NCBI GenBank assembly: GCA_946699065.1
Contig: CAMPDV010002093.1
Coordinates: forward strand, 18,868 to 82,867
Direction: 5' to 3'
Length of the DNA stretch: 64,000 nt
Source: Loxodes magnus
Lineage: Eukaryota; Ciliophora; Karyorelictea; Loxodida; Loxodidae
Position 1 is the first letter of the stretch, and every line of letters begins with the position of its first letter. The notes under the pieces are model-generated. The model was not told the DNA's origin and did no database searches. It worked only from the letters and a program-made list of their open reading frames with translations. Made by a program: the position numbers and the translations under genes. Below, one piece after another: positions 1 through 50,899 of the stretch.

Positions 1-69
1 GGTTCATTTATAAATTATAATTAAACTTTCCTTAATATTATTATTATTTAACTAAATGTAAAATAAATA
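1..69 (+). repeat. Left terminal inverted repeat
   Basis: It begins GGTTCATTTATAAATTATAA and pairs with 6884-6953. The only difference I see is a run of three versus four A near base 25. Confidence 0.9.
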
Positions 70-1948
70 AGCTAAATTATGAAAACACTTAATAATAATC
101 TTAATTAGTAACTTATTTATTAAATTAAATGCGAATCAATAATTCTTGTAGTGGTATTTCGATCATTTAGAATTCCTTCTATTTAGAAAGTAAAATGAAA
201 GTGTATTAGTAATGGAATTTCAGATTTATTTCTAATTTTATGAATTATCTTTGATGCTAGTTTTTAGAATTTTAATTAATTTAGCTTTTTATTGCATTTA
301 CTTAAGAGAAGTTAGAATTATATTTACTAGAGCATCTTAATGTTTATTTTTTAAAAATATTCTATTTAAATCCTTCTCAAACAAAAATAAATTTCTTTAA
401 AAAAATTATTTATTTTATTACATACTCAAAAGGAAAAAATTAGCTAATATAAATTATTTATCTCAAATCAAAAGTAGATAACTAAGGTTAATAAAGATAA
501 AATGGAGAGTGTATTAATAATTCTTGATATATAAGATAGTTTATTTAACTGGCTTAAACATTTGTTAGATACCCGCAATTAAATAATATATTCACATAAC
601 AATTAAATAATTATATTAGCTTATATTAATTATTATAATATGTATTAATATAAACTTAGTTAATAATAGTAATTATCTTTATTTAAATGTAATAATACCT
701 TTAAAATTTTAGAAATAGCTAATTAGTAAATTTATATTTGTTTAAGTAGATAACTTAATGTAATTTAATTATTAATTTATAGCTTTATAAAGGGATATAG
801 ATAAGTATCTTATTTAGTAAACTATTTTAGAAATGTTCTTAAGTTATAATTATTTAGTTTTCATTAAATAAATATAAATAGTTAAGATTATTTTAAGCTT
901 TTTATGTAGTAAACCAATATAAAATTTAAAAGCTATCTAGTTTTTAATTTAGGAATCAAATAAAACTAACTTAGCATTATACTTAAGTTAATAAATAGCT
1001 TGCCTGTCTCAAGTTACATTAAATTTCTTAAAGTAAAAATAGAAAGGAAAATACTCTTATCATTTAAGTTTTAAGTAGCAGAATGAGAAATACTTTTAGC
1101 TAAATATATTAATAGACTATTTTAAAAATGAACTATCTTATAACAATCTAAAAATATAAATATTAACTCTTAATAAAAATTATTTTATTTAACCTGATTC
1201 CTTATAACTAAAAGGAAGAATTCCTTAAATAGAATATGAACATTTGAATTATTTTAATAAAAGAATGTGGGAAATTATTTAACGTATAATTATCTAAAGC
1301 ATAAACATCATAATCTAGATTTATTTTCTTAAAATAAATTTATTTAAACCATCTCTTCTACGCTTTTTATTATTTTCTTCTTATGTTTTAAGTTTTATAT
1401 GCTTTGTATTTATGGTAAATTTCTAAATGTCCTTTTTATCGAATACTCCAACAATAAAAACATGAATAGCTTATATAAATATTAATAAAAAGCTTTAAAT
1501 AGTAGCTAGTACTCCTAATATATATTAATTTTAGTGCTTCAAGGATATTTTTATTTTATCATCGTTAATTTAAGATTCAAGGTAATAAATAATCATAAAT
1601 CTTTCAGAAGAAAAATAAAGGCTGATAGAGTTGCTAAATAAACTTTTGAATTACCTATAAACTTATATTACATTAAATTATTTTTGCATTAGAATTATTT
1701 ATAATTATTTGCTTTAATCCTCTCCTTTATTAACTAATTAAATGTTTATAAGCATTAATATTTAAAATACTTGGTATAAGAATTTCTTTTAATTTTGTAT
1801 AGATTTTAACTGATTTCTCTTGAATTTCTTAATAACTTTAGTTTAAATTTATTTTATAAAGTAATTGTTAAATTGTTTATTTTCATTAATTTTAAATTTA
1901 ATTTAATTTAATTTAAATGCAACTATGATAAATTTCTTTAGATTAAAA

Positions 1949-2494
1949 ATGAAGAACATCCCTAATGTTAGTAAGATAAGTCCAGGTGTAAAAAGTTGTT
2001 TGGAATCGGCTTTCATCATACTACTGGTGATAGCAATAGAGATAATCCTTTACTTTCAAGGATAATATTATAAGCCTTGCTCAGAATTTAAATACAGTTA
2101 TAACTTATGAATACTTTAGAGGGTTCTATAGCTTTAAATCTTATCGTAGTACTTTATTTTCCTCATTTTCAAGTTCCAAGAGTAACAAAAGCTCTAAGAT
2201 AAAAGTAAAGAGAAGATGATCATTATTTTATATCTAATAAGTGTAGTGAGTTTTATAGGAGCTATTATTCTCGTATTTTGTTAGGAATATACCTAATAAG
2301 ATGAAATTTGTGGTGATTGAATTAGAGAGATAAAAGAAAATTCAGAGTAAGTGAAAAGAAATTTCTAGGTTAAACTGTTTGCTATTTGAATTTTAGCTGT
2401 ATTTTTTAATATATGTATGTATGTTAAATTAAAAGAGTCAGAATAGAAGGGCAAAGAGAGTAATGAAGTTTAGACAAGTGAAGAGTTGATTTGA
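1949..2494 (+). CDS. IR-TM family membrane protein, copy 1
   Basis: A 181-aa protein of unknown function, intact when TAA/TAG are Gln and internal TGA is Trp. Four hydrophobic segments are visible: near residues 20-36 (FIILLVIAIEIILYF), ~65-80 (ILSQYFIFLIF), ~95-115 (ILYLISVVSFIGAIILVF) and ~148-165. Conserved marks in all family members are an ESxF motif at the start of the first segment, YFQGxYYKxC after it, and a CxDWIREIKxN loop between segments 3 and 4. The Trp of that loop is TGA here and TGG in the copy at 16191. The TGA at 2492-2494 is at the same place in five paralogues and is taken as the stop. It lies about 1.9 kb inside the left element. There is no resemblance to a known family that I recognise. 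Confidence 0.7.
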
Positions 2495-5427
2495 TTCGAT
2501 TATTTTTAACTTTTATAAGTCTTTTTATTATACAATTTTTATAACTAAATCAGATTCATCTGACTACATATATTTTAAGTCTATTGGAATGAATAAATAA
2601 CAAATTTTATTTTCTTTTGTGAAGATCTGAGTTTATTAATAACTTATTTCTTGCAATATTTTAGGTAAATAAATATAATAATTCTAAGAAAATATTTTAT
2701 TTATTATTAATTTAGAATGATTATACTCTTCATTATACCCTAAATTACCTTTTTTAATTTAAAATAATAAACATTTTTATCAATAAACTTCTATTTTATT
2801 TACTTTCTTAAGTGTTCTAGATAATTTTTACGTTCTTGTTTGAATATTTATTTAAGATTACTCTATTATTGAGTAAAATTTTTATCATTTCTCTATTGCA
2901 ATTTTAGTTTAAGTCATTTGAAAATGAAAATTGCTAAAATAGAGTAATATTTTTCATAATCTTCGTAATTCTCAATTCTAATATCTACTTTGAAACAGTT
3001 TCTTCTCAATTTTTTGTTGTTGAGTCAATATTCTTAGTTAAGAAGTTTAATAGACGATTATCAAATATTGATTTAACAACTAATACTTAGGTTTTCTTTG
3101 TTGTGATTTAAATGTATGATCCTTTAATTTATTTTCAGTGCTTTATGTAAAATTTAGCCTTTATGATGCCTTTTATAGCTCTAAGTTCCTTGATTAAGGA
3201 ATAAATAGTTTAATTATCTTTTTGCTTATTTAATCGATAAAAGAATCTATGCTATTCTATCTAAACTTAACTAGCATTATTTTCATCCTGAACTAAATAG
3301 AAATATTTAAAGCTGTTTGCTATAATAGCGCTCTATTAAGTATTAATAAAAAGTAAGCTTATAAATCTTAATAACTAATATAGGTTTGAACATTATGGTT
3401 GCTTATTAATGCTTATATGCTTTCCTATTTAGTACTAGCAGCTATTTTAAATTAGGATTTAATTTTTAAGATAGTTTTTATTTAAAGTTATATAATAGAC
3501 TTTAAAATTGGTATAAGCAAATTAAACTTAGGCAAACTTTTATATTTAGAGTATTTTAGAAATTACTTCTTCTTAGCCTTTATATTGGTAATGCTTAAAT
3601 CTAGATAGAAAGGTGTTTATTTAGTAATAATTAGTAAATTTGATTAAATAAATCTAAGTAATTATGCCTCTATATTAATATCAAAACAGGGTATTTAGTA
3701 TTTATAGGAGATATGCTTAATTAATTTAGATTTAGTAGGATATATATTTTAGTTAGACATTTTATATCTAAAGAGTATTATAAAGTAATAAATGCTAAAT
3801 ATAAGATATATTTATTCTACCTATTTCTAGATAGTGGAATAAAAGGTTGGTAAAAGGAATTGAAAATGATTATTTAGATTTAAACCTAAACCTAATATTA
3901 AATATAAATAGCTAGAAAGATTTGTTTTAATGATATCTATTTTTAATATCTTTGATTAATTATAAAATACTTTAGCCTGCTTTATTAGAGACTAGGATAA
4001 TATCTATTTCAAACTTTAAAATAGTTAGGCTGATTCTATCTTAGTGCACTATCATAGCTTAATATCTCTAAACTTAAATTTAAAGTCAAAATATTAATTT
4101 TAATTAGAAGCTTGTCTAGCTCAAAATAGCAGTTTGCAATATCTATCACTTTTTACTTTTAGTATAAAAGTATTAATCTTGCTTAATAAGTTTGCTTATC
4201 AAAAGCACTATGCAAAGTATAAAAATAATAAGTAAATTTTAAAGGCTTTTAAGGGTTATTTAATTACTAAGTTAATGCTGTAAGCATATATGATTAAATA
4301 AGTTCATAGAAAGAGTCTCATATTTCCTTAGGAAATCATAACTTTTCTAGAATCATAATTATTCAGTTAAAGTATAAACATTTTCTTCCTCAATGCCACT
4401 GGCTTGCTAAAGGAACTACTTTATCATTTGCTGAAAATGAAAAAAGTCTAAATAAATTCGAAAGTATTAGAAATTTTAAAAAGTAAGTTATGAAATTTTA
4501 TAAAAGGAAATATCTAAATAAATATTATCTTTGACATCTTCTAATTTTGCCTATTTACCTTTATAGCATATGATAGATTTCTTAAGCAACATACTAATAT
4601 AGTTATTTGTCTAAATAATTCTAAATAAAAACATCCTTTTTCTTTATTTTTTAGAATGATGCTACTTAATCTTTAGTCTCTTCTTAACTTTATTAGATAT
4701 CCTTAGTATAGCTTCCTTAACTTGCTATATCTTAGTTATACTTTAGTGCAATGCTCTTAGTTAAATTATATAGATGTAATTATTATCTAGATATACTAAA
4801 AGCTAAGGTGTATTTAGTTATAAGTTGAAATATTTCTAATATAAATGAAATTAACTATATTGGTATAAACTTAATAAGGTATAACTTTAAATATTCGTTT
4901 ATAGTAAATAAAATGCTAAAAGCATATACTTAAGAATAAAGGGCTATAGTTATCTCTATAAAATAAACATCATTTTTAATACTTGCTCATCACCTAAATC
5001 ATTACTAATATACAAAAAACTTAATAATACCAACTAAGAACTATATCCAGGTCAAATAATAGCTAGAAAGTATTTGCAATAATAAAGTAAGTTAAATAGC
5101 TTATAGATATAAATAGTAAAATAGGATTTAATTTAAATTAATCTTCTAAAGTTAACTCTCTTAGGGGAAATAAATAAATTACTTAAAGGTGAAAGAAAAC
5201 TAATTTTCTAAATATAAGCTTTTCGTGTATTTTATCTTAATTTAACCAATTTCTTTAAATTACTTTAACTCAAATCTTCATAAAGAATCTATTCATTCAT
5301 CTGTATAACCTTTATAGCCAATACTTCTTAAAAGTGATATAAAATATACATATATAAAGTAATTAACTAGAATATATAACTTAAATACTTTTATCTAAAA
5401 ATAATAATAAATCTTAAATTAGTCTAG

Positions 5428-5967
5428 TCAGATTATCTAATTACTTATCTCAACTTTACTGTCCTTACCATTATTCTCTTCTGTCTTATTAATTCTTAGA
5501 TACATACAACTGATGCAAGTAAGTACTAAAAATATTAAAATAAATGCTTTAATCTTGAAATTTCTTAATACTTAATCTGGGTTTGACTTTATATCCTCGA
5601 TATATTCTCACATTTTTCGTCTTACTCCTAAGTAAAATCTTATCAAATTATGATTATTATGCCTCCTATAAAGCTTACTATACTTGATATTTGTAAAATT
5701 ATACAAATCTTCTCTTAGTTTCTTTCTTACTACTCGTGTTCCTTTTTGAACTCGAAAAAGAGGAAAGTAAAGCGCAGCAGGAAAACTTAAAACTAGAGGT
5801 TTCTATTAAAGACTTAAGTAATAATTATCCTGAGAAGCATAGCAAGCTTTATAATATTACCCTTGAATCTATAAGAATATTTCTATTGTTGTGACTAGCA
5901 ATATAATGAAAGCTGATTCCATTAAAACCTTTACTCCTGGACTTACTCTATTAGCAATAGAGAGCAT
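5428..5967 (-). pseudogene. IR-TM family membrane protein, copy 2, frame-broken
   Basis: The start resembles the family (VSPGVK, then MESAFIILLV, then IQGQYYKAC). The family frame then shifts by +1 near 5820, where FFEFKKE and SIVSFIGGIIIII become readable, and shifts back near 5605 to give IEDIKSNPDQVLRNF. It ends at the usual TGA (5428-5430). The two shifts compensate, so length stays a multiple of three, but the middle is out of frame. Removal of a 16-nt intron could explain the first shift. I found no convincing GT-AG pair for the second, so it is called a pseudogene. It faces copy 1 across the element. Confidence 0.6.
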
Positions 5968-6130
5968 TTTAATATGAATAAATTTATCATAGTTCTATTT
6001 AAAGTTTAAAGCAATTTAATTAAATAGTGTAAGTAGCTTTTAGTTTAAATGTATAATGTAACTATTTGAGAGCTAATTAAAATTCTCTATAATACTATAA
6101 ACTTTATACAGTTTAGAAAATAATTAAAAA

Positions 6131-6880
6131 AGAAAAGCAAGAAACCAAGCGACTACTGAGGAACTAAAAAAACAAAGACAGAATCGAGAGTCTAGCTCAT
6201 TTTCAGAGGGAAAAGTAATGGTCGGTCTTAATGAATAAGTTAATCTTTGAATTTAAAATAATAAATTACTCTAAAATTAAAAATTGAACAAATGAAAGCA
6301 TAAGATGCAAAATAAGAAGAAATTTTCTTTAATCAAAGAGAAAAAATCTGGAATTTAATGAATTGCTTAGAAGATTAAAATAACGAATTGCTAATTCTTA
6401 AAATTTAACTGATAAAAAACAGTTTAGTAACAGAAAATTAACTTTATGAAATGTCTTAATCCAACTTCAAATAATCACAAAGAATGATTATAGAAGAATA
6501 TCTAAATTAACAACAGCATTTAGAAAAATAAAGTAAAGAACAAATTGATTCAAACCTAAGCAAAAGAATTTAGATGTTAGAAAGAAAGATTTATCCAAAG
6601 AAGAAAGTTAAGAAGTAATATAAAAATTGTTGTTCTGTGAATCTAAATATCACCTACTAAGACATTGCAAAGAATAAAGGCTACTCAAGCACAATGAAGA
6701 GCAAAGAACCTGAAGAAACCTTAATAAGCTTTGAATTACTGAATTCGGAGTTTATAAATAAAAATTACTAATAAGAAACTAAGAGATTCCTTTGTGGTAA
6801 CCATCCGCTTATAAAAAAGGTCGTGGAATACAACCACGAAAAAATGTTGTCCGCTGATACCTGGTTGAAAACCCATACGC
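6131..6880 (+). CDS. bZIP-like / coiled-coil protein in the left element
   Basis: Two frames join if a 17-nt GT-AG stretch at 6190-6206 (GTCTAGCTCATTTTCAG) is removed. The fused protein then has a basic stretch KKQRQNREGKSNGRS, matching the bZIP spacing Asn-x7-Arg-x9-Leu. It is followed by about 90 residues of Gln/Glu/Leu-rich coiled coil and a basic patch PKKKVKKQYK that could be a nuclear localisation signal. Without the splice the frames do not connect. No start codon is visible in the basic-region frame. No in-frame TGA occurs before the right terminal repeat, so both ends are uncertain. If real it would be a nuclear DNA-binding dimer encoded next to IR-TM genes. A plain coiled-coil protein is the alternative. 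Confidence 0.4.
6821..6839 (+). other. Hairpin just inside the right terminal repeat
   Basis: TCGTGG (6821-6826) pairs perfectly with CCACGA (6834-6839) across a 7-nt loop. It sits in a relatively GC-rich patch (6790-6880) that directly adjoins the right terminal inverted repeat. No counterpart is seen inside the left repeat. It could be a subterminal protein-binding site. That role is inference. Confidence 0.4.
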
Positions 6881-6883
6881 AAA

Positions 6884-6953
6884 TATTTATTTTACATTTA
6901 GTTAAATAATAATAATATTAAGGAAAGTTTTAATTATAATTTATAAATGAACC
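6884..6953 (-). repeat. Right terminal inverted repeat
   Basis: Reverse complement of bases 1-69. It ends TTATAAATGAACC, after which non-element sequence (ATTCTACCC) begins. Confidence 0.9.
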
Positions 6954-7332
6954 ATTCTACCCTTACCTAATACTTCTGTTGTACATGTTATCATAAATAG
7001 TTTGGTTTTAGTACAAAAGCTTACTATTAGATTTAATTTTAATCTAAGCATCTTAATAAATGTAGGTATTTTAAATAATTCCTTATATGATTTATTAAGC
7101 ATTTTCCTTATATACTTATATTTATAGATTCTAATTATATAGCTTAATGAGCTAATGAGAGTTCTAACAAAATATAGATAAATAGATTAAATTAATATTT
7201 ATTTAGCATTTGAAGAAAATGGTTGATAATTAAATAAAGTAACTAGGCTTATAAGTTGATAAGATAAAAATAAGCATAGCTAATTATATCTTCATTTTAG
7301 TATAAATTATATTTATTATCTATAAATTAACA

Positions 7333-7404
7333 GCCTCTATGGCTCAGTTGGCAGAGCATTCGCTTAGTAAGCGAAAGGTCCGTGGTTCGAGCCCGCGTGG
7401 AGGC
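7333..7404 (+). tRNA. tRNA-Thr (anticodon AGT)
   Basis: 72 nt. The acceptor arms GCCTCTA and TGGAGGC pair. The anticodon stem TTCGC/GCGAA encloses the loop TTAGTAA with anticodon AGT. The T arm contains GGTTCGAGCCC. A run of T follows directly and serves as a Pol III terminator. An A34 (inosine) Thr tRNA is typical of eukaryotic nuclear genomes. A near-identical gene lies on the other strand at 50825-50896. Confidence 0.97.
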
Positions 7405-10089
7405 TTTTTATTTAATAATAAATAAGATATATTATTAAATATTTAATTAATAGAATTTTAATTAAGAAAATATAATATACAAATAAGAAGATATTTAATA
7501 AATAAACTAATATTCTATTATATTTAGAAAAAGACATAACTTAAATAGATATTAAAGAAATAGAATACTAATATAATAGTTTATTTATTTTATAATATTT
7601 TTAAACTAATTATAAATATTTTCATATTTTTAATACAATTTTAATTAATACTCTTTTAAATAAATATCAACAAATTCTTAGTCTTTCTTTTGAAATGTTT
7701 TAATAATTTCAATCTATTTAAAATATTATTATTCTTAATTTATTTTAATGCTTAAAATAATTAATAAAATAACAATAAAGAGTAAGCTTTAATTCATAGA
7801 TTCTTATTAATTACTTATTTCTACTCTTATCTAAAATTACTATTTACTCTTAGTTATTAGCATTAATTAAGACTTAAAGTAGATTTTTTACCTAAATAAA
7901 AAATGAGATATATTAAAATATCTTAATATTTAATATTTTAAATATACTTTTATATCTATAAAGATTATTATCTATCATAATAGTCATATATCATATAGTT
8001 ATTCATATTCTAAACTATAAGAAATTACTTATTTACATCTTATATTTTTATTTCGTTAGAATGGATTTTTATATAATGGATGGTTTATATATGATTTAAA
8101 AACTTAAACTAAAAATAAAGAAGAAATAATAAAAAGAAATTTAAAGTTATTAACCTAAGTCTTAAACTTCAATCATATAGTGAAAAATAATTCTAAATAT
8201 TTTGGCTGTATAAAATACTTTATTTTAAATAAATTGATTTAATATTTAAAAAAGTAAAATAAAAAGAATTTCTCTAGTAAGTTTATTAATAAGCAATAAG
8301 TATAAAAAAGCAAATGCTAAAAATTATTTTATTTTAATATATTAGTATTAAATAAATTTATTTAATGAAGAAGTTGATAATAAAGTTGTATTTGTAATCA
8401 TTTAATAATAAAATTGTAGATTTAAGTTTTCTTCTTATTTATAAAAATTATTGTTTAGTTTTATTTTTAATATTTGCTAATTTTGCTGTTATTAGCTTTT
8501 TTAAGTTTTTAGAAAATATATTTAAGTTTAGAAATCAATTTTTAAAAATGTAGCTTCTATTTATCTCAAAATTTTATTAAATTTTCATGATTTAGGTATA
8601 AATTTATCTTAAGTATTATTAATCTAGGTAAATATATTTAGAAATTTAATCAAAGTTTTTAATATAGCCCTTCGAAATTCTTTCCCCTTCTATTTTTAGA
8701 TTTTTTTTAAAATAATATGAACTATTATTATTCAGTATATGGCTTGGATTTATTTGAGATAATTATTTATTCTCAATTCTAATATTAAAATTTGATGTAT
8801 TATTAAATCTTATTTATCTGACTCTCTTTATTTTATCACATTTTTTATTATTTTAGAATTATATTTAAGTGTATTGGTAGATTTTCTTAGATATTATATT
8901 ATTTTCCTTTTGGTTGGTTTTTCAAACTTTCTTAATTATTAAATATATTAATAAATCTACTTAGATTTAAGAGGGGAAAAATCTAAAATATTTAATTTAT
9001 AATATTTTTATTAAATTATCAATTTTAAACTTAAAATAATCTAAATATTTATAACTCAAAACTTAATTATTGTCACCTTTTTCTTCATAAAATTGTTATT
9101 CAACGTTTAAATTTAAAATATCTTCAAATAAATTATTAAAATAAAAGATTTAGATAGAATAAGGCATAAAATATAAAATTCCTAAATAGAATTGTAAATT
9201 AATAGATAAACTGAGTGAGAGAAATATAATAAAGAGATTTAATTGCATAATGCTCCACAATATTTAATTATAACAATTTATAAAATTAAATTAAGAGTAT
9301 AAGTCATTTTTTAATATTCAAAGCTTATGATTGAAAAGTAAAACTTTCAATTAGTATTTGATAAAATTAAAAAGATAAAATCAAAATTAACAAAATCCAC
9401 AAAATATAAAATTTATTCTTTCAAAAATTAAAAAAATTAGATAAATACTAAAATTTGTTAAAGTAGCTATAAAAATTTAGTAAGAAATAAAAGCTTAAAA
9501 CATTCAAATAAAAGTAGATATTCAAATAAAATTAGGGATTTATAAATTAGTTTAGAGTTTAAAGAAGTAATAATTTAGATTTGATGGTATTTCTAAAATG
9601 AATATACTTTAATAATAATTAGAAATGAGATTTCATAATTGGTGTAGGTAAGAATAATACTTTAGAGTAATTCTTAAATTAAGATATTAATTAATATATT
9701 TATTATTTGATTGCTAAATTCAGAATTTATATTTCTTAACTTCTATTGACTGCAGTTAAAAATTAAGTAAGTTTTGTAAAGCATTTCCTTATTAATTATA
9801 TCTTATTGACATATAATATAATTTATAAATAATTAAGATTATTATATCTTTTTACCTTGCCTAAATATTAATAAGCTTAAACATTTGCTTTAATATTTAT
9901 AAAAACTAGCCTAAGTTTAAATTTACTCTGCTTATAATAAAATTCTAAGAAATATTAAGAAAAGGATAATTATTAATTTATTAAATAGCTTTTATTATAT
10001 TAAGCTTAACTCTATTCTGGAATATATTTCAGATAAAATAGTAAAACCATTTACATGTATAAAAGCATCTTACTATTTTAAATAATAAA
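7405..10089. other. Gene-poor AT-rich stretch
   Basis: Very AT-rich DNA between the tRNA and the giant palindrome. In the reassigned code it is open but gives only Lys/Asn/Ile/Phe-rich low-complexity translations without motifs. Nothing supportable was seen. Confidence 0.5.
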
Positions 10090-10886
10090 CTAAAATTATT
10101 ATAAAATGTATATAAAAGGTTCTATTCATAAAGTTTATTACTCAATACATTTCTAAAATAAACACATTCTTATATTTTACATTAACACAAGTAGATTCTA
10201 GTTTTTATACTCTATAATAATAGAAAATATTAAGAATTTTTATAGAGTTAAATTATTATTTTCTTAGATTATGTTTATTTTTTATTTTAAATTAAAGATT
10301 AGAAATTTTTTAATTCATTCTAATTCTAGAACTTAAGCATAATGTAAGAAAACTTGGTGATTTTTAATTTCATATTTATTCTAGCATTTATTTCAATTAG
10401 CTCTTATTATTCTAAATTATCTATTAAACTCATTTAATTTTCAAAACAATGATATATCATTAAGGCACTTGCATACTAGTAAAATTAAATACAAATTGCT
10501 TAAAAAACTTATTTAAAAGTATCATAAAATATGCTATATAAATCAAGTTTAGCTTTATTTCAGAAACATAATTAGAACACTAAGAAAAGGAAAAAGATAA
10601 ATCTAGCAATAAAATGTAAAAATTTTACTTTTTTAATTCTATTTTTATTAGCTTTTTTTTATTTAACTTATTTATCCTAAATGATAAGTCATAATTAGCA
10701 ATCAATTATTGAAGATCTTAATCTTAATTTTAATGAAATGTAGTGCTTAGTTTATTTTAATTAAATTTATATCCATCATAACTGTAACAATATGCTTATT
10801 TATTTTAATAATTAACTTTCAACTTACTTTTAAATTCATTTCTGCTTAAAACCAAATCTAACTTGGATCAATTTTTATAATTATTA

Positions 10887-11423
10887 ATGAAAAATTCCCA
10901 ACTGTCATTACAGCCAAAGCATGACTTAAAAATAATATTGGAACCCGCTTTCATCATATTCCTAGTGACACTAATAGAACTAATTATTTACTTTCAAGGT
11001 TAGTATTATAAATCTTGCTAAGATTCTAAGTATGGTAATCGTTTCTAACTCATTAACAGTATTCTATAACTGCAAATCTTGCTTTAGTATTTTATTTTCC
11101 TCATTTTTGAGTTCAATGATAAATAAAAACTATAAGACAAAAGCAAATAGAAGTTCAGCATAATTTTATACCTAACTAGTGTGGTAAGCTTTATAGGAGG
11201 CATTTCATTCATATTATGAACTAATTTTCTATAGGAATAAGAGGATAGCTGCGATGATTTAATTAGAGAAATAAAAATGAACCCGGATTAAGCAAAAAGA
11301 AACTTAATGACTAATGTGCTTGTTATAGGAATTCTATTAATAGTCTACAGCATTTCCATATATTTAAAGGTTAATGGGACGGAATAGAATAGAGAAGAGA
11401 TTAATAAAGCTGAGATGGTCTGA
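10887..11423 (+). CDS. IR-TM family membrane protein, copy 3
   Basis: 178 aa, uninterrupted. The first hydrophobic segment reads AFIIFLVTLIELIIYF and is followed by QGQYYKSC. The third segment reads LYLTSVVSFIGGISFIL. The cytosolic-type loop has a variant CDDLIREIKMNPDQAKRN, in which the usual Trp is Leu. The TGA at 11421-11423 is at the family stop position. The mirror partner in the right arm (30463-30890) is badly decayed, so this copy has been kept while its twin was lost. Function unknown. Confidence 0.65.
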
Positions 11424-12163
11424 TTCAAAAGCTTTAACTTTATTATAGATAATTATAAAAATGATACTAGATCCTCTTATAAGCATTTTCATGAATATAT
11501 AGTAGGAGAATTGCATAAATTATTTTATTTGTTTAAGATTAAATACATTTTTGCTTAGTATATTGCTCTAATTTCTAGTTTCATAAATTTAGGAAATAAG
11601 CAAACTTAGATAAAATTACACTGATAAGCTAATGGTGTGAAATATTAGTTGAAAACTAGTTGAAAACTACTTGAATATTTACTTATTATTTTAAATTTAA
11701 TTACTTTAAAACAAATTTAAGTTCTAAATAGAATATAAATCTAAGGATTATAATAACTTAAGAAATTCTAGATTACCTTTATGGTTATAAAAGTAAAATA
11801 CTTAGGTAAAAATAAATCTTTTTAATAACTTAAATACTTTCAATAGTAAGTTAGTCTCCATTTATTTTTTAGTTTTATAGTTCTAAATAAAGTTTATTAT
11901 TTTTAAATAAAGCTTTTAATTATTTTAACTTATAATAAAGGAACTATACCACAATAAATACTTAGCAATGTAGAAGAGTTATATTATGCAATTTTTAAAG
12001 TTTTCCCTTTAAATATATTAATTGCTTCAAATATATATAATTATAATCTATATAGTAAAAGTCTATGCTTAGTCCATATTAGCATAATCATTATTTAAAA
12101 TAGAAGCTATAAATACAAACCTATTAATTTATTGCCTTATATTAAGAAAATAGTTAGAAATGT

Positions 12164-12709
12164 TTAAATTACTATTAAGTTTTCTCCATTGCTTCTTTGA
12201 TTCTTTATGCTTCCATCTATTCTTCTCATCTTATAAAATAGAATTAAATCCAATGTAATTACAAAAATTGCAATAAGGCTTGCATTTATTCTTAAATTAC
12301 TTATTACTTCATTAGATATTAACCAGGTTTATCTATATCATTATTTGCATTTCTCTTCTTATTTCTAATCTAATTCAGAACCTATTAAGATTACACAAGA
12401 TCCAACAATACCTAACATACTTAAAGTATATAATATGAACTTAGCAATTTCTTTAAATCCTCTTTTAAGCTAATTTTAGTTAAACTGAAGGAAAAGGAAA
12501 AAAAAGTATTTAATAAGAACTAGCAAGGATGTGAGCTATCAGAAGAAATTAGTGTAATAGCCGAATTCGATAAGTAAGCAAGGTTTATATTGATTGGTCT
12601 ACTGATAGAGCATAAATTCCACAACAGTCACAAGCAGAACAAAGAGAATTGATTCAATTAAGTCCCTGAATTTAGAAATAGCACGAGATTGATTTGAAAC
12701 AATTTCCAT
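12164..12709 (-). CDS. IR-TM family membrane protein, divergent subtype, left copy
   Basis: 181 aa if it ends at the TAA at 12164-12166. It is almost the same as the right-arm copy at 29184-29729. It is a distant family member that keeps the motif order: LIESILFVLLVTVVEFMLY, QYKPC, a long Phe-rich second segment, and LYTLSMLGIVGSCVILI. The loop CKQWYRQTW uses TGA for the first Trp. No TGA stop lies near the family end. Either TAA ends this gene or the protein is much longer. Both arms keep the frame open over 540 bases with several substitutions, which suggests it was functional. Confidence 0.6.
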
Positions 12710-18415: not shown

Positions 18416-18450
18416 AATATATATTAATATATATTAATATATATTAATAG
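18416..18450. repeat. 10-bp tandem repeat
   Basis: About three and a half copies of TATATTAATA in tandem. This is a simple AT minisatellite in the palindrome spacer. Confidence 0.85.
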
Positions 18451-19912
18451 ATTGTAGAATTTGATATCTTTTATATGAATAATGATTTAGCTAGAGATCC
18501 TTTTTAGTGAAATAAAAATATTCTAAAGTTAGATAAGGTTTATATGAGACTTAAACTATTTTAAATCTATTTAAAGATATAATTTCTAAATATTTAAAAG
18601 GAATTATTTGTGATAAATTAATGTGCTATTGAATATATTGAATTGATAGCTAATTAGCCATAAAATTAAAATTAAAGCTGTTTGATATTTTATAACTATC
18701 CTTTTCTATATTTAATTAATTTAGTAATAGTTATTTTAAAATCATTCTGCTTTTTAATTTTATTAAAGTTAAATAAATCTAAGTGAATGCTTATATTTAT
18801 CTTATCTAAATTAAATAAATAATTATTCTAAACATCAAAAGGCTTTACTGTCTATTTAAAATAATATTTTACAAAATTCTATCTCTTTCACACTTAAAGT
18901 TTTAAAGTAATAATAATTAGTTAATAAGTTTGCTTATAAAATAGTTCCAAAGTGTAAAAATCATAAATAATTAAAAATAACTATTTCTAAGATAGATATG
19001 TTTACATAGCTAATATGATATAATTATAAAAATAATATTCAAATCTTTTTAATATCTACCTTTATATATACTTTTATTATAAATAACCTATTTATTATCA
19101 AATCATATAAAATTAGCTTTCCTACCAAATAAAATAATAGAACTTTAATACTAAAATACCTAAAATAGTTGTTCTAATATACGTTTTTAATTTATTTTAG
19201 TGTTAAATATTATTTATTAATTATCTAGAAATAGATATTTGGAAGAATTTGAGACTTAAAAATTAGTGGAAATCTCAAATCTTAGTTCAATCCCACATTG
19301 CCAGATTTTAAATGAAGTTAAATTAGTAAAAGATTTAAATTAATGCTTGCTATGTTTAAAATAATATATGATGGATATTTAAATGGGAAAGATACACAAT
19401 TAAAAAAGTAATATTAGATAGATTTTAAAATATATTATTTATATTTTTATTCTGTCAATTTTTAATTTGATGCTATTCTTATTTAAAAAATTCAACTCTT
19501 TTAAATAATTTTTTTAATATATATGAATAATATTTTTGGTTTTTCCTTTAATCTAAATTTTTAAAAAGAGATTGAATAAATTATTTTATTAAAGAAAAAA
19601 AGGTATCAAATTTAAAAATTATGAAATTTTAAGCTTATTTTATCTTAAAATTTTTCGATGAATTGATTATATAAAATTCGAGAGTGTTTATAAGGACTTT
19701 ATGCCTCATAAGTTTAGCATTTATTCTTTTTAGACGGGAGCTTATTACTGATAGCCTAGGCATGAGGATAAGCAATCCTCAAAGTCAAATGGCTCTTGAT
19801 TTTCATAAAAAGATGCCTTTTATGCAAATTTGTTGCTCAATCATTGGTTTAGGTAGTTTATTTTTGTAAGTTTTCCCCGCGGATCGCAGTACATCTTCCT
19901 TCAAATTAATCA

Positions 19913-20578
19913 TCAGTGTTTATCTTTGTTTTGCTAATAGAACCTGTTCTAATATTCCCTCTACGTCTCTAGAAATCTGGACGATTTCGGTAAAGGTATC
20001 CAGTGCATTTGTTTTTTTGCTTTTACTGGACCTTTCTGGTTAGTTGGAGGATTCTGGAGGGGTGTTATGGTTTGAGCTAAAATAAATCCATTGAAATTTG
20101 TGTAGCTTGAATTGTTTTCATTGCCTGGTCTTATATCATCCACAGTCTTTGTTAAGTTGAAAATTTTCTTGTTTTACTACCAATAGCTCTTCTTTAAAGT
20201 CCCAAGATTTAATCTAAGAGACTGAATCTCATGTTTAAATCTACTCAACAAATGTGAAAATTTTTAAGATTAGATGCAGTAATTAAATGTCACATATTTC
20301 TCCAGTTTAAGCTTCTGTATTTCTAGTTCAGCTCAGTAGCATTAATGCTAGGTCTTTTTCCTGTGACTGCTAAGAGATAAATTGACTAACTGAGGACGTT
20401 TGCTATTGTAGTTTCTTTCTCGGTTTCTCAGCAGTCGGTAGCATGCTTATCGTTGATTTTTGACTCTTTAAGGAATATTAGAATGGTTTCTACTCAAAGC
20501 GGTAGTAACTTGTTCTGCTCTTTCTCAAATCTGCTGTTTCTTTAGAGCTATGCAAAAACATTTTAAGAAGCTTTCCAT
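19913..20578 (-). CDS. bZIP-like protein at the palindrome centre
   Basis: 221 aa in one open frame from ATG (ends 20578) to a tandem TGA TGA (19910-19915). Residues ~55-75 hold a basic stretch CYRLLRNRERNYNSKR with the bZIP spacing Asn-x7-Lys and the usual RLLRNRE core. It is followed by a Leu/Glu/Lys segment (AELEIQKLKLEKY). The C-terminal part is Pro/Asn/Lys-rich and unstructured. The region is clearly less AT-rich than its surroundings. The frame stays open through the TGAs to 19706 with an acidic stretch (YENQEPFDFEDC), so a longer 290-aa product is possible. The likely role, inferred from the motif only, is a nuclear transcription-factor-like protein. The zipper heptads are imperfect. 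The context matches the bZIP-like ORF in the left element, which also sits beside IR-TM genes. Confidence 0.5.
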
Positions 20579-23138
20579 TTTCTAGATATATAACGTTTTG
20601 ATTAAAATATAATAGAAATTAAATCTATTTAGAAGGTTAGATATTTATATAAATTTTATCCAATTTAAAGTTGTATAAATAATAAATCCTTATATATAAT
20701 TCTTTTTTTATTATTTAAATTTTATCACTCAAATTAAAAAAATTCTATTATTACTCAATTAAATCAAAATTTAAGTTTAATAAAGTATAAAGACAGAAAT
20801 TATATATAGAGAATGCTTAAAATACTAGTAAGTTAGTATAAAAACATTTGCAAATAATGATTTATTTAAGATATATTATAATAAACTCTTGAACTTAATC
20901 AATTTTTTATCCAATTTATAATGAAAAAATAATTTAGTGCTTAGAACCTTTCTCTTTTAACCAGATTTTTAAATCAATTAAAAAATCACTTTTTAAGTCC
21001 ATTTTAAGTTATCTTTATTAAGGTAATTTGTCATCTTTTAAAAAATTAATCTTAAAACCTTTTAACTATTAAAATATTTTAAGCTATATAAAATAAAATT
21101 TACATAAGATATATAATTTAGCATAATTATTATTATTAAATAAATTAGATAATATCAAAATATTAACTATTTTTTATTCTTAAGCATTAAAGCAAAAATT
21201 TAATTATTTATATACTATAATTATAGTTGTTTTAAGATATCTAAACTTTAATTTCTTTAATTTGCAGAAATAATAAATTAATAATAGGATGATAAATCTA
21301 TATTTAAGCAAATAGATAATTTTTACTTAATTGGAATAATAAAAATTATTTTGATAGAAATATGAAATAAAAAATAAATACAAATATTTTTTATTTAGGA
21401 CAATAATAAATAGATTTATTTAATCATTTATCTAAATTTTAATTATATATATTAGTTTATCTAAATGATTGCCTAATAAAATTAAAAATATATTATTATA
21501 CTGAATATATATATAAAAATAAAATAAAATAAAAATTTGAAATAACTTTCTTAATTATTATGAAAATTTTGATGAAATAAATAATAAATTAAAGGATTTA
21601 GCAAAATTATATTTGTTAATTTTAAGAAACCTAAATTTATTTATTTTATAGTTAAAATGAAATAATTATTTTTAATTATAATCTACTGTGAAAAATAAAA
21701 TTGTTAATTTTTTTCTAATCTAATTAGGATAAATAATTAGATGGAATATTAATTTTAATAGCATAAAATTCTATAAATGGATAAAAAATTTGTTTAAGTT
21801 ATGAAATTTTCTAATTTTAATTATATCTTTAAAATGTTTTTTTAATTTAATGAAAAATCACAAATGATATCACTCATGATTAAAAACTTTTTTTATAAAT
21901 TTATAATAAAATTTCATTCTAGTCATATTAATGAACTTAGTATAAAAAATTAGTAATTTTATAAGTTTTTAAATTAAAATTTAATATTAACAAATATAAT
22001 AATTTATAGCATTTTTTTAATTTGCCTTTTAAAATAAATTAGGATTTAAAATTTTTAAATAAAATGTTTTTAAAATATTTATTTTTTTAATTTTCTTATT
22101 TTTTTATTTGGAAAAATTATTTATATAAAAGTACATTTAAAAATGAAAATTATATATAATATTATTATATTATTAGCTAAATGACTTTATGTTATGAATC
22201 ACCATATAAGAGATTGCTTTAGGATTTATGCTTTACTAAAAACAAATAAATTATTTTAACTAAAAAATTTGAATTTTTATAATAATTTATTCCATTTACT
22301 CCTTTCGCAGTTGATTCTTTCTGAAACTATTTTTTCAAATCTTACGTTAACTAAAAATTAACTCAAGGGGAATTAAGAAGTTCTATAAATTTATTTTAAT
22401 AACTTAAAGTTCAACATTTTTTGAGAATCTTGAACATTTTAATATTTTCAGAACTTGATAAGAACTAAGAAAAAAATGCAACTAATGATATTGATGTAAT
22501 TAATAATCCTAAAATAGAGCAATAAGTAATTTTAATTAAAAAAGACAAAATAGCTATAGAGATGATCTGATTACACTAAAAAAATAATTAAAGAATTATT
22601 CCAAAAATGATTATTAAAAACAAAATTTAACCTTATAAGCCACATAACTTTAGTTAATTTAAACTATCTTCTTTTTGTCTAACTTTAAAAAAAACATTAA
22701 AATTAATGCATAAAGGAAAAATTCTATAGAAATTTGAAAATTTGTAAAAATATTTATATTTTGAGTAATAATTTCATCTTCTTAAAACTTTAGAAGAATC
22801 TAAAAAATTTTAATTTTAAATTGTCAAAACTAATTCTTTACTTAGACCTAAATTTTTCCTTAATTTTGATAAAATTAAAACAATGAATAAATATAAATTA
22901 AATTTTAGAAAAGAATTATATAAAATTTATGTTTTTTAAAGATTCTTAAATTAAAAAAATTATAAAACTAAAGCAAATTAATGAAAAAAGCCTATATATA
23001 TCTTTAATTATTCAAATTAAATAGATAAAATCTTGTTCAAGTGCTATTATTAAAAAATTATATCAGATTTAATGACTAGAAATTATAATCTAATATTTTT
23101 TCGCCTTACAAGCTTTATTAAAATTAAAAATTTTTGAA

Positions 23139-23690
23139 TCAGATCATCTCCTCCTTTATCTCTATTTTATTACTCTCTTCGACTTCTTATTCTTTTTAAC
23201 TCACTTTTATGAACATCCAAATGTTGCAAACTATTAATAATACTCCTATTATTAACTCTTTAGTTATGAAATTTTTTTCTGCTTTATCTGAATTTTCTTT
23301 TATCTCTCTAATCCAGTCACTACATTTTTCGTCCTCTTATTCTTTGGTAATTTCTGATAAGAATATAACTGCAATTGCTCCTATAAAACTCGCTATACTT
23401 ATTAGATATAAAATAATACTCATCTTCTCATTACTTTTATCTTAGATCTTTAGTTTATCTTTGAACTAGAAAATGAGGAATATAAAATACTGAGATAAAA
23501 TTTGAAGCTACGAGATTCTGCTTAAAAGCTAAAGATGATAGCTGTACTTAGACTCTTAGCAAGGCTTATAATATAAACCTTGGAAGTAAAGGATTAGTTC
23601 TATTACTGTGACTAGCATTATGATGAAAATCGATTCCAAAAGATTCTTTATGCCTGGAGTTATCTTATGAGCAGCTAAATTATTTTTCAT
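23139..23690 (-). CDS. IR-TM family membrane protein, copy 5
   Basis: 183 aa, intact twin of the frameshifted copy at 16191-16741. It reads ESIFIIMLVTVIELILYF, then QGLYYKPC, ISQLQILSQYFIFLIFQF, LYLISIASFIGAIAVIFL and CSDWIREIKENSDKAEKNF. A last hydrophobic stretch (LIIGVLLIVCNIWMFI) leads to a charged Lys/Glu-rich tail and TGA at 23139-23141. Trp in the loop is TGG. The four membrane segments and two conserved Cys suggest an integral membrane protein. Partner and substrate are unknown. Confidence 0.7.
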
Positions 23691-25924
23691 TTATAACCTA
23701 AGAAATTATCATAGTTGTAATTCCTTTAAATAGAAATTAATTTAACAATTGATTTATAATTTAAAGACTTAAATTAAAGTTATTAAGAATAATAAAGAGA
23801 ATAGGCTATATTTAATTTATTAGTTAAGTAGCTTTATTACTCTTTATACAAAAGAATCAATAAATTAATATTCATAAAAGGTTTTAGTTAGTGAAATACT
23901 AGAAGTGATGAAAGATAGAGGAATATAGTTATAGATACTTCTACGCATTGATATAAAATGATTAAATATGGTATAAATATAGGTAAAATAGAAGTTGCTT
24001 TAGTAAATATATTAAGTTTATTTTTATCTTAAAGTAATAAGATTTAGTTTATTTTGCTTGATTGTTAAATAAATAATTATAAAATGAAATTTACTCTAAT
24101 TATTATTTGTATTTTTAGAACAATAACTCATAATAACTTAAAGGATTTAAAGTATTAGATGCAAAAGTAAATAACTTAGTTTTTAATGATTATTTGTATA
24201 TTAATTCAGAGTTTTTAAAAGGTTATGAATTTTATTTAAAATATATGATTAATAAATGTTTTCTCTTTATTCGATAAATTATGAAATCACAAAGTTTTAA
24301 AGACTAAAAATATAAGAAAAAATAATTTTTAGAAAAAGTGAGATAAGGAAAAAATAAATTCTCAGATAAAAACTATTTAAAAATAAAAAAGATTTAGATT
24401 TAAAATAGAGTAAACATGATATTAATAACTAATTTGCTACAAATTTTAATTGAAATTTATGAAGATAAATGGGCATATAATGCTAATATAGTTAAATAGA
24501 ATGATAAATAAATTTATTTAAATCTTATAAATTAAATCCAATTATGAGGAGAGTAGAAGATCATTCTAAATCTTAACTATTTATATAGTTAAAGTACTTT
24601 ACTTTGGATAATTAGATTCATTTATATCCTGTGAAATGTAATTATTATTAAAATTAACAAAGAATAAATCACCTAAAATTTAGTTATGCTTTAATTTCTT
24701 TAAAACATGCTAGAAATGTAATAAAAGGAAGAAAAATATTTTGATATAAACTATTAAAATTACATTTATATTTAGAATCTGGTGAGTTCTACTCTTATTT
24801 AAATAAAATTATTTTACTAAAGTTAAAAATAAATAAACCATATATAAGTCATTTTATTAATTTTTATATAAAAGCTTTTTGCTTTATTCATTAAGATTAT
24901 ATACTCATAATGTAGAAAGATAAAATAAGCTTCACTATAAAAAGTTTGTCATTTTTATGCTAAAAAAGGTAATCAGTCTTTTCTTATTGCTAGATAAAGC
25001 AAAAAGACAATTTCTTTCTTTTACTTTTACCTATTAATAATTTAGAATGCTTAAAATATTAAAAATAAATTTAAAGCCTAAATTAAATTCCGTTCATAAT
25101 TAAGATAATTGAAAATTTGCAGCTTTAAATTAGAATTTATTTCTAAAAGATAAAATAAGAAACTTAAGAAAAATTAATATACTTAGGATAATTTTATTTG
25201 AAAGAAGATATTCTTAATAAAGGCTTTTTAATTTATAGGATTGAAACAAGTATAAACATAATAGTTTTGTATTAATTAGATTTTTTATATTTGAAAATAA
25301 TAAGAAACTTATTAAATATAAATAAAAACTATTAATTTAATTATAAGCTTTTATTTAATTAAACTAATCTAAATTATTATAATTCAAAGCATCATTTACT
25401 AAATGCTTAATAAACTTTTTACAATAAGAGCAACTGAGATTGAAAATAGCTTATCATATAGCTATTCACTTATAATTATATTTAATTTTTAATTTTAATT
25501 TTAATTTAAGGTATAATATTAATTAAAATTTAAATTAGTAACTTAAAAATAGACTGAAAGAAGAAAGTTAAGAATAAAAATATTAATTATCATTTTTATT
25601 AAATAAATAAGCTTTTTTAAATAATAATAAAACTAAAATAAAATTGGATTTATATTCTTACCATATAATAACAAATAAGCATTCAAAAAATAATTGACTG
25701 GTTTTTATATAAACTAGATTAAATAGACATCTTATATTTCATAAATCTATTAAATTAGTTGCTTAAGATTTACACTAAAGAATAATATCTTTATTTTTAA
25801 TTATTTATGAAAGGAAATATTATAAAGCTTATATAATTTTAAATATAGCTTTTAGATATGAAAATGAGAGTAATATAAAATATTTTAAATGATAGCTAAT
25901 AAAATTAAATTATGTAAGAAAATT

Positions 25925-27800: not shown

Positions 27801-29183
27801 TTATTTACTTTTGAAAATTTTCTTTTTGTCCTTCTAAATTAAAGTTTTTATCTAGCAAATCTACTAATTTCACCTTTTATATAAATTAAGAAACTATACA
27901 TACAATGTTTCTATATATTTTTTATCTTCGTCACTTATTTATCAAAAAGAAAAACATCATACTAGCTTTATTTATTAGTAAATTAAAGTTATAATTGGCT
28001 AAGCAATAAAAAACTTATTGCAATCAAGCTTGTTAAAGCAAAAACAATGCTGATTTGCTTATTTTTATAAAATTAGTTTACGCTAATTTAAATAAAATAA
28101 TTTAAATTTAAATAAAATAATTTATAATAAACTTAATACTTTTCCTAATTAAAGAGATTCATATAAATATAACCATTTTATTTATCCATAATGTAGTTAG
28201 ATAAGTTTAAACTTAAAATTTAAGATACTTAAGCTTTACCTGTTTTTATATCTCTATATCATAAATACAATAATAAAATTTTTTAACTTAAAAATTCTAT
28301 CAAATAGCTAATTTCTGGATAAATAGTATGAAAATTAGAATATTTTTAGAAATAAAAATTTAATTAAGGAAAATAAATAAAAAGTATTTTAATTTAGGAT
28401 AATGCTAAATAATTTAGTCTAATGTTTTATCTATGAGCTTTCATAATAGTTTAATAAAAATATAAATAACTATTAATAAAGCTATTATTTTATTTATTTT
28501 AATTTAAGAGAAACAAAGATACTTTTTTCTTTAATACACTTAAACTATTTTGGGTAAACTAAATAGCTAAAAAATTAAATGGAAATGAACAGGTATTAAG
28601 TTATTTTAAGCAAAAGCTTAGTTTATTTAATTTATAGTTAAAATGAGATGAATGACTTTTTATAATTATCCGCTTATTTTAACAACAAAGATCAATTTTA
28701 TCTTTATTTATTTATCTAAATAAATTTACAATAGTTTGCTGTAAGATTTTTTAATTTATATAAAGTGATGGATATAATAAAAGCTATTTTCGTTTAAAAT
28801 TTTAAGGATAATTACCACTAGAAAATTTTGGTTAAATTAAGTTTCTCTGTTAAATTATATTTCTAAAGTGGTACATAATTTATTGTATAGTCAAAATTAA
28901 AGATTCTTATGATTTGAATTGTATATAGAAATTAAATTATAAATATTAATTCATTTCACTATATTAATGAAAAGCACTTGATTCATACAACAAATAAAAA
29001 TTATTATTATTTTTAAACTTTTGAATTTATAAGGATATAATAATAGATTGCTTTAAAATAGCTTTTCTAAATGATTTGTTTAGAGTTATTATGATCAAAA
29101 TATTTTAAACAAGCTATTTTCTAAATAATTTGTTATTTTTAGATTCTAAAATTCTTATTTGATATATGCAAAGTTATAATAAA

Positions 29184-29729
29184 ATGGAAATTGTTTAAAA
29201 TCAATCTCGGGCTATTTCTAAATTCAGGGACTTAATTGAATCAATTCTCTTTGTTCTGCTTGTGACTGTTGTGGAATTTATGCTCTATCAATAAACCAAT
29301 CAGTATAAACCTTGCTCACTTATCGAGTTCAGCTTTTACACTAATTTCTTCTGATAGCTCACATCCTTGCTAGTTCTTATTAAATACTTTTTTTTCCTTT
29401 TCCTTCAGTTTAACTAAAATTAGCTTAAAAGAGGATTTAAAGAAATTGCTAAGTTCTTATTATACACTTTAAGTGTTTTAAGTATTGTTGGATCTTGTGT
29501 AATCTTAATAGGTTCTGAGTTAGATTAGAAATAAGAAGAGAAATGCAAATAATGATATAGATAAACCTGGTTAATATCTAATGAAGTAATAAATAGATTT
29601 AGAATAAATGCAACCCTTATTGCAATTTTTGTAATTACATTGGATTTAATTCTATTCTATAAGATGAGAAGAACGGATGGAAGCGCATAGAATCAAAGAA
29701 GCAATGGAGAAAACTTAATAGTAATTTAA
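29184..29729 (+). CDS. IR-TM family membrane protein, divergent subtype, right copy
   Basis: Mirror copy of 12164-12709, 181 aa to the TAA at 29727-29729. ATG is followed by EIVQNQSRAISKF, then the first membrane segment ILFVLLVTVVEFMLY, QYKPC, a second segment VLIKYFFFLFLQF, a third (LYTLSVLSIVGSCVILIG), the loop CKQWYRQTW and a fourth (LIAIFVITLDLILFY). The length equals that of copy 1 if TAA is the stop. There is no in-frame TGA for at least the next 60 codons. Substitutions relative to the left copy do not break the frame. Confidence 0.6.
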
Positions 29730-30462
29730 ACATTTCTAACTATTTTCTTAATATAAGGCAATAAATTAATAGGTTTATATTTATAGCTTCTATATTAAAT
29801 AATGATTATGCTAATATGGACTAAGCATAGACTTTTACTATATAGATTATAATTATATATATTTGAAGCAATTAATATATTTAAAGGGAAAACTTTAAAA
29901 ATTGCATAATAATACTCTTCTAAATTGCTAAGTATTTATTGTGGTATAGTTCCTTTATTATAAGTTAAACAAATTAAAAGCTTTATTTAAAAATAATAAA
30001 CTTTATTTAGAACTATAAAACTAAAAACTAAATGGAGACTAACTTACTATTGAAAGTATTTAAGTTATTAAAAAGATTTATTTTTACCTAAGTATTTTAC
30101 TTTTATAACCATAAAGATAATCTAGAATTTCTTAAGTTATTATAATCCTTAGATTTATATTCTATTTAGAACTTAAATTTGTTTTATTGTAATTAAATTT
30201 AAAATAATAAGTAAATATCTTAATAATTTTTCACACTATCAGCTTATCAGTGCAAATGATCTAAGTTTGTTTATCTCCTTTATTTATTAAACTTAAACTT
30301 TAAAGCATTATATTAAATAAATATATTTAATCTTTAGTATAAAGAAAAAATATAAAATAATTTATGTAATATTCCCACTTTATATATATGAAAATGTATA
30401 TAAGAGGGTTTAAGATAATTTCTATAATTATCTTAAAAGATATTTAAAAATAAAAGAAGTTG

Positions 30463-30890
30463 AATCGGGTTATCATTGCTTTATTAATCTCTTTTCTATT
30501 TTATTTTATCTCATTAACTTCTAAGAATATGCAAATGAAGAAACAAGCAATAAAACTCTTATAGTAAAACTTTAGCTGTGAATCTTTTTTGTTTAATCTG
30601 TGCTTTCATTATCTTCTCTATGTCAATAAGCATAGTTATCTTCTTACTCTAAGATAATCTCTTACCAAAACACGAAATAATAGCTCTTATAAATTTTACT
30701 AAAATAATTAGATATAGTTATTATGCTAAGAGTTAGAAACTTTTTACTTAGAATCTTAGCAAGATTTATAATATTTATCTTGAAAGTAAAGAGTTAGTGC
30801 TATTAATGTCACGTTTTTTTATGATAAAACAGATTTCAGTTAAGTCCTTAAATCTGATTTTGGCTATAATGACAACAGGGTATTTTTCAT
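30463..30890 (-). pseudogene. IR-TM family membrane protein, copy 6, decayed
   Basis: Mirror relic of copy 3 (10887-11423). The start matches (ATG AAA AAT, then LSLQPKSDL) and DKYYKSCQDSK is recognisable. The first membrane segment has lost its hydrophobic pattern, the middle is shortened, and the family stop TGA has become CGA (ACC CGA TTC). The outer part of the right arm is more diverged in general. Confidence 0.65.
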
Positions 30891-31594
30891 TAATAATTAT
30901 TAAAATTGTACAAACTAGATTTTATCTTAGCATTAAATAGAAATAATTAAAAATTAAGTTTAAAATTAATTATAATTAAGAAATAAATAGCATAATATTT
31001 CAGATATGATGGATATAACTAATTATATTTATAATTTTAAGCTTGAATAAGTAATCTAAATAAAAATGCTAAAATAAAAAAGAAAATTAAAGTTATTTTT
31101 TATATTTTATTACTAAAATTTATCTTTTTTCTTTTCTTAGTTTTTATTAAATTTTAGTATTTCTGAAATAAAACTAAAATGATTCTCATAGCATTAGTTT
31201 GAACTTTTTAATACTTTTAAATAAATTTTTAAGCAATTTATATTTACTTTTTCTTTTATATATTTCTTAGTGATATAATAACAAAAGAGTAAATATGAAA
31301 TTAAAAATCACTAAAATTCTTAATTTTGTTAAAATTCTAAATATTAAAATCTAAATATTAAATTATTTAATTAGATTTAAATTAAAGCATAATTAATAAA
31401 AATTAAATTTTAGCTTCTATAAAAATAATTTATTTTATTTCCTTTGTATTTTTCCATTATAGAGTATAAAAAATAAAATTATAATTTACTTTAATTAATG
31501 TATAAATATAAACTTATTATTTATTTAAGAAATGCATTTAACAATTAAATTTATGAACAGAACCCTTTATTTCAATTTTATTATATATATTATA

Positions 31595-32004: not shown

Positions 32005-32213
32005 TTTTTATTTAATTTATTTATTTATCTTATTTTGTTCCTTGATAAAATTAAAATATTATGATTTTTTATATATGAAAATGGTTTAATGTTTTCTCTG
32101 AAGTTTGCTCCATAGTATATCTAAAATAAAAAAATAAAGTTTATTTTTAATAAATTAATAATAATTATCCTTTCCTTAATATTTTTTAGAATTTTATAAA
32201 ATAAATAAATTTT

Positions 32214-32700: not shown

Positions 32701-32726
32701 TTATATGATATAATAAATTAATAATT

Positions 32727-32915: not shown

Positions 32916-32922
32916 ATTTAAT

Positions 32923-33458: not shown

Positions 33459-33484
33459 AGAATTTTAATAAAATTATTTTTCCT

Positions 33485-50896: not shown

Positions 50897-50899
50897 TGC

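Follow-up and report, generated by a model that had tools for sequence, protein, structure and literature searches.

The stretch of DNA analysed here, called the window, comprises 64,000 nucleotides of Loxodes magnus (contig C2093, positions 18868-82867), and its right edge is the end of the contig. The original prediction counted in it ten copies or relics of one small four-segment membrane protein family, and all ten were located. Five paralogs, which we denote A to E, are found in the window and in the arrays described below. From the left, B lies at 1949-2491 on the plus strand (181 codons, with TGA read as tryptophan at 0-based codon indices 53, 123 and 146), E at about 5463-5961 on the minus strand, frameshifted here, C at 10887-11420 on the plus strand (178 codons, TGA as tryptophan at index 110), and D at 12170-12709 on the minus strand (180 codons read, TGA as tryptophan at indices 56 and 123). 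The left A gene (16190-16738, plus) has a frame broken by a one-base difference; its right counterpart A', listed as P0001 (23142-23690, minus), is open over 183 codons. Further to the right are D' (29184-29723, plus) and a relic of C, C' (about 30730-31277, minus), both in the right arm of the palindrome described below, then a distant relic of the family (about 49404-49939, plus) and a second B copy, B2 (60984-61526, plus), 59 kb from the first.

When the assembly was searched with P0001, 150 matches were scored out of 198 first-look candidates; the 128 of these that are listed are spread over 21 contigs, of which 17 have strong matches and 4 a single weak match each. Apart from the copies of A to E, a sixth paralog, which we call F, matches strongly at a single place, on contig C255; its own search added short weak matches on six further contigs (C163, C1216, C1225, C2491, C6617 and C7221).

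In an alignment of 30 members, E19, E31, C44, C123 and ten further positions are invariant. Hydropathy profiles show four segments for A, B, C, D and F; in E the second stays below the threshold. The family is an orphan one, with four predicted transmembrane (TM) segments and two invariant cysteines; the products are presumably integral membrane proteins that, by the predicted topology, have two loops on the same side with one invariant cysteine apiece. The CCG motif is a feature of tetraspanins. Tetraspanins such as CD9 are alike in having four predicted TM segments and cysteines in two loops, but here there is one invariant cysteine per loop, the CCG motif was not seen, and the only PDB profile match, CD9 itself (6k4j), has an E value of 0.09, which is not significant and does not place the family in that superfamily. 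Pfam returns weak hits to membrane families that differ among the 30 members: UNC-93 in 13 (best 5.9e-6), Pox_A14 in 16 (best 1.6e-5) and Frag1 in 5 (best 1.6e-4), and for the first member of the set no family reached its cut-off. We read such scattered weak hits as membrane composition. Among viral contigs, 122 pattern stretches yielded no confirmed relative.

The four-TM frames need the karyorelict code, with TGA readable as tryptophan. ATG-started open reading frames of at least 150 codons number 0 under the standard code and 117 when TAA and TAG are read as glutamine. According to the main-text parts of PMC11441545, TGA is the sole stop codon of Loxodes, yet it encodes tryptophan when far upstream of the poly-A tail. 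In an alignment of 56 family sequences TGA occurs in seven columns, and at three of them other members have TGG. At column 57, B has TGG in 14 of 17 sequences, and D has TGA in four and TGG in three. Column 111 holds TGA in C (7/7) and E (3/3) and TGG in F, while at column 126 TGG is found in 20 of 21 A sequences and TGA in all 17 of B, all 7 of D and 4 of 7 of C. At columns 8, 38, 54 and 149 TGA stands opposite non-tryptophan codons; these may be plain substitutions. At least 34 codons separate the in-frame TGA from the gene end in types B, C, E and F, and coding UGAs in Loxodes are reported at a similar distance from the end (PMC11441545, main-text parts). Since TGA shares columns with TGG and lies far from the gene end, the TGA conserved in B at column 126 is no sign of decay. 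Among five RNA polymerase matches, one (on contig C45) also has an in-frame TGA.

Once the code is taken into account, the term relic suits only a part of the copies. Some frames are disrupted, as the original prediction held, but in several cases the appearance of decay may come from an in-frame TGA that can encode tryptophan or from a difference in run length. Type A is open in 25 of the 33 copies among the P0001 matches listed; two of the eight broken ones have a counterpart on another contig from which they differ by one-base changes in run length and by no substitution, and these two are probably assembly errors. Type B is open in 21 of 23 (locus L052, one of the open ones, is without TGA at the usual place), the copies on C3373 and C3939 being frameshifted. 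C reads open in 7 of 8, with L083 frameshifted, and D reads open through all four segments in 8 of 8, no nearby in-frame TGA terminating it. Three of the six E copies read open (L075-L077) and three are frameshifted.

The long inverted repeat that had been proposed is confirmed. Its left inner arm (13967-16764, plus) is 93.9% identical to the right inner arm (23116-25924, minus), and less similar outer parts, at 68-84%, reach about 10453 on the left and about 31277 on the right; a block that holds D (11663-12735 and 29158-30230) is 96% alike. The arms fade outward from 94% to 68% with no sharp terminus. Between them lies a spacer (16765-23115), in which the sequence behind A differs from that behind A'. 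We disagree with the proposal, as we understand it, of a second kind of inverted-repeat DNA: B and E are merely paralogs in opposite orientation, at 58-68% identity.

The same genes recur in a fixed order, B+ E- C+ D- A+. It extends over about 20 kb and is present whole or in part on 17 of the 7,843 contigs, among the matches listed; C255 departs from it in that E and F precede B. Five contigs (C2093, C255, C2357, C663 and C1024) each carry a pair of A genes that point towards each other with a spacer in between, and there the C-D-A part faces its inverted copy. The two A loci at the end of C663 recur without a single substitution at the start of C2357. These contigs are hence taken to overlap, which gives the complete order B E C D A, then A D C E B. 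Contigs break inside these repeats, and the true gene order and copy number are uncertain for that reason; the same sets of ends recur, as expected of assembly breaks. A subtelomeric position was considered and dropped, no telomere-like repeat being present in 150 bases from each of 20 contig ends.

The homology extends well beyond the genes. C640:15001-20885 matches window 58139-64000 at 97.7%, C640:19835-29164 matches 3956-13295 at 97.0%, and C640:37348-40657 matches 15407-18733 at 94.7%, C640 having, relative to the window, an extra stretch of 6.1 kb that lies 780 bp before A. Window 39187-44184 is 99.0% identical to C2357 and 40933-42931 is 99.15% identical to C663, the C2357 and C663 stretches being mutually inverted, and within the window 941-3589 matches 59960-62625 in direct orientation at 92.3%. 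A search with 1.1 kb from window position 42000 scored 40 matches of 265 candidates; among those scored, five are full-length at 99-100% (C2093, C663 twice, C2357 and C255), and the remainder, at 71-74%, cover the second half only, which is a dispersed repeat. In the contigs tested, larger segments around the genes recur at 92-99%, both direct and inverted. Coding genes in spaced inverted duplications and several near-identical segment copies, both present here, are what one finds in an ampliconic palindromic family.

The best explanation, in our opinion, is an ampliconic multigene locus, in which an old cluster of five genes was inverted beside A and amplified as segmental duplications; we put the probability of this at about 0.72. 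Old tandem duplications would have given the five paralogs, a single inverted duplication with its breakpoint just behind A would have created the palindrome, and the enlarged unit would then have spread by unequal recombination between repeats. Recent copies close to neutrality would be expected if the amplification raises dosage or is merely tolerated.

One may ask instead whether the unit is a large transposable element of the Maverick/Tlr type or another, non-autonomous or unrecognised, with the TM genes as cargo between long terminal inverted repeats. The Tlr and Maverick elements of Tetrahymena do show long inverted repeats in a ciliate genome. The likeness holds in so far as the inverted-repeat DNA here is multi-copy, and the unit also includes a 16.5-kb stretch (31574-48054) flanked by inverted repeats of about 450 bp at 91%. 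Against this, strong matches are confined, among those listed, to 17 contigs; gene order and big neighbouring segments are common to the copies where tested, in place of unrelated insertion sites; the fading arms offer no sharp ends; and no Pfam domain, be it of a transposase or an integrase, appeared in the scanned frames. At E of 0.01 or less no Pfam family was found in any frame of either strand of 1-10 kb, 17-27 kb and 31.5-50 kb, and at 0.05 or less none either in 54-60 kb (minus frames) or in 49.8-54.3 kb (a single plus frame); the scan had one positive control, an intact RNA polymerase locus, and degenerate genes could escape it. The original prediction's remark that no transposase was seen is consistent with this, with the same reservation for degenerate remains. 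A transposable element is, on balance, improbable. The idea of a selfish cassette is not supported either, given that one gene order is kept, that larger segments are homologous where tested, and that no mobility domain was found in the frames scanned. A conserved membrane-protein family tied to inverted-repeat DNA is supported.

Nor do the ORFs described as bZIP-like, one for each kind of inverted repeat, define such an element: the three candidates belong to families dispersed elsewhere, matched no bZIP domain and are not specific to the unit. The relic in the spacer (19600-20600, minus) comes from a dispersed family; of its 24 matches in the genome, ten lie in the arrays (88-100%, window included) and 14 elsewhere (66-74%). 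Its relative L044 has in one frame a C-x2-C-x4-H-x4-C stretch, which we take to be a zinc-knuckle pattern. P0007 (6292-6990, plus) is a coiled-coil-like ORF, dispersed, with 7,828 first-look candidates, and P0002 (58861-59469) is another dispersed ORF, with 2,752; 150 were scored for each. Pfam finds no bZIP domain in either P0002 or P0007, nor in any frame read from 1-10 kb and 17-27 kb. We considered P0002 as ORF1 of a LINE, but the 3 kb that follow one of its copies returned no match, and hence we claim it just as a dispersed high-copy ORF. The main-text parts of PMC11441545 describe this genome as repeat-rich, with abundant LINE-related sequence.

It could also be argued that the copies form a reservoir for a hypervariable surface or recognition function, mating-type-like perhaps, in which copies would exchange sequence and be expressed alternatively. 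Many open and near-identical membrane genes are present, and A genes are 96-97% alike between unrelated flanks, both of which suit such a reading. Across 23 loci, identity is about 97% within A and the 300 bp that precede it; between flanks that belong to different classes it is about 50%, the background level, and these flanks are unrelated. Downstream similarity stops within 50 bp of the A stop in four of the five pairs compared, the fifth sharing one downstream class. A single inversion with its breakpoint behind A, copied with the unit, accounts for this edge. We reject cassette switching at A, as the three shared flank edges fit one inversion (behind A), one insertion (780 bp before it) and one rearrangement (300 bp before it). 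Flipping of the spacer between palindromes was likewise rejected, the swapped-looking sides being explained by the overlapping C663 and C2357 contigs of one palindrome. Between groups, differences at third positions (0.029-0.047) are about as frequent as differences overall (0.028-0.044), with no diversifying signal. A reservoir of this kind seems to us quite unlikely. The claim that frames are kept while flanks gather indels survives in part: there are 0 gap events in A against 4-13 per full 183-bp flank bin, but the 23 loci were selected for an open A, and many flanks are not homologous at all past about 300 bp upstream of A or just behind its stop.

Also conjectural is a palindromic amplicon that expands itself, its copies perhaps forming a pool on which self-recognition at the cell surface draws, or one that might gain from its own copy number. 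From the sequence we hold this to be improbable; if true, it would be a natural case for how an array is handled where no germline editing can remove copies.

Selection was estimated with the GY+F3X4 model, the controls being those alignments read one or two bases out of frame. Between paralogs, each type being represented by a single sequence, omega comes to 0.39 for the set A, B, C (shifted 1.45 and 0.98) and to 0.46 when E and F join it (shifted 1.25 and 1.09); for six types it is 0.41. Within A it is 0.74 (shifted 0.62 and 0.72; 21 unique of 25) and within B 0.86 (shifted 0.59 and 0.67; 17 unique of 21), that is, no lower in recent copies of A and B than in shifted frames; C and D, for which there are no shifted controls, give 0.78 and 0.60 (7 copies each). 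For A, the Nei-Gojobori method gives 0.51 (shifted 0.52 and 0.73; reverse frames 0.59-0.93). Since omega between paralogs is low relative to shifted frames and omega within types is near them, we conclude that constraint is long-term and that recent copies are close to neutral. Values near 1 in all copies had been named as evidence against the prediction; they are nearly reached among recent copies (0.60-0.86) and not between paralogs (0.39-0.46). A mostly decaying pseudogene array, hitch-hiking in repeats and now without function, would agree with these within-type values and with the frameshifted half of the E copies read, but with most A (among the matches listed) and B copies open, two of the broken A copies probably assembly errors, and in-frame TGAs placed as in coding sequence (PMC11441545, main-text parts), we judge it very improbable.

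As for the nuclear origin of the locus, the assembly totals 705,730,643 bases in 7,843 contigs, and the published L. magnus assemblies, which use translation table 27, are of 706 Mbp for the macronucleus (MAC) and 848 Mbp for the micronucleus (MIC) (PMC11441545, main-text parts). By total bases and code we infer that the assembly holding the window is the MAC one. Its RPL3 protein is as distant from the Tetrahymena one (4v8p) as from that of many other eukaryotes, or more so. Canonical germline-limited IESs were not found in L. magnus, and extensive DNA elimination is reported as absent, according to the same parts of that paper. The genes are thus present in an assembly whose size fits the MAC and not the MIC, which speaks against their being germline-limited, as had been suggested. 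The main-text parts of PMC11441545, supplements aside, hold no mention that we found of an amplicon or palindrome of TM genes, and no earlier description of the gene family with its palindromes was seen in the open-licence papers found, again without supplements.

Loci of this kind, multigene clusters with palindromes that are amplified as segments, are already known. Ampliconic families in mammalian Y palindromes are alike in having multi-copy genes, large spaced inverted duplications and segmental amplification; their genes are unrelated to the four-TM family. In Y palindromes, conversion between the arms keeps them homogeneous, at over 99.9% identity (PMC3723533), whereas the inner arms here are at about 94% and partners are not mutually closest. 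Indeed, palindrome partners are mutual nearest in none of seven distinct palindromes (eight pairs, one entered twice via the overlap), and hence conversion between arms is not supported; in one palindrome, the left arm's nearest non-duplicate is its partner. Such conversion is typical of Y palindromes, but it is not required for a locus of this kind.

The presence of TGA and TGG in common columns is an alignment-based display of the ambiguous karyorelict code. It also carries a warning, because TGA taken as a fixed stop in gene finding, together with one-base assembly indels, makes open genes look like relics. If the locus is the ampliconic multigene cluster that we favour, it represents a large gene amplicon, palindromic in structure, in a ciliate with a reportedly unedited genome (PMC11441545, main-text parts), and an orphan membrane family under long-term constraint.

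The 218,345-bp contig C640 (loci L112, L113 and L122) ends as it begins: the terminal 400 bases at its two ends are reverse complements of each other, identical at 400 of 400 positions, and the clusters of four-TM genes that it carries are likewise arranged as mirror images. The region at 106.5-112 kb, examined for self-complementarity, is not self-complementary. C640 would be either a very large inverted repeat or a fold-back of the assembly.

Contig ends recur elsewhere too. In the 150 bases printed for each end, the starts of C163, C1216, C2491 and C6617 are identical; a further set with a sequence in common consists of the ends of C526 and C1279 and the start of C591. Within a set, the common ends look as if the assembly had broken at one and the same repeat.

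Inside the unit, the amplified segment that carries the gene cluster, lies a 16.5-kb stretch (window 31574-48054) that has inverted copies of a roughly 450-bp repeat, 91% alike, on its two sides and contains an internal direct repeat of 330 bp; a Pfam scan of its frames returned zero domains. A basic stretch of 43 residues is common to the ORFs P0004 (34124-34699, minus strand) and P0005 (55659-56117, plus strand), with 44% identity and E about 1e-5. The coiled-coil-like ORF P0003 (35744-36418, minus strand) has C-x2-C-x4-H-x4-C at its C-terminal end and, by eye, resembles gag or ORF1.

The window further holds two tRNA-Thr(AGT) genes (7332-7406, plus strand; 50823-50897, minus strand), whose regions, in opposite orientation, are 79% alike across about 270 bp, and one tRNA-Cys(GCA) gene (51958-52031, plus strand). 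By eye, the start of the window's own contig (L114, C2093:1-400) resembles the N-terminal portion of a ubiquitin-activating enzyme (E1), which would be an ordinary gene about 19 kb upstream of the window.
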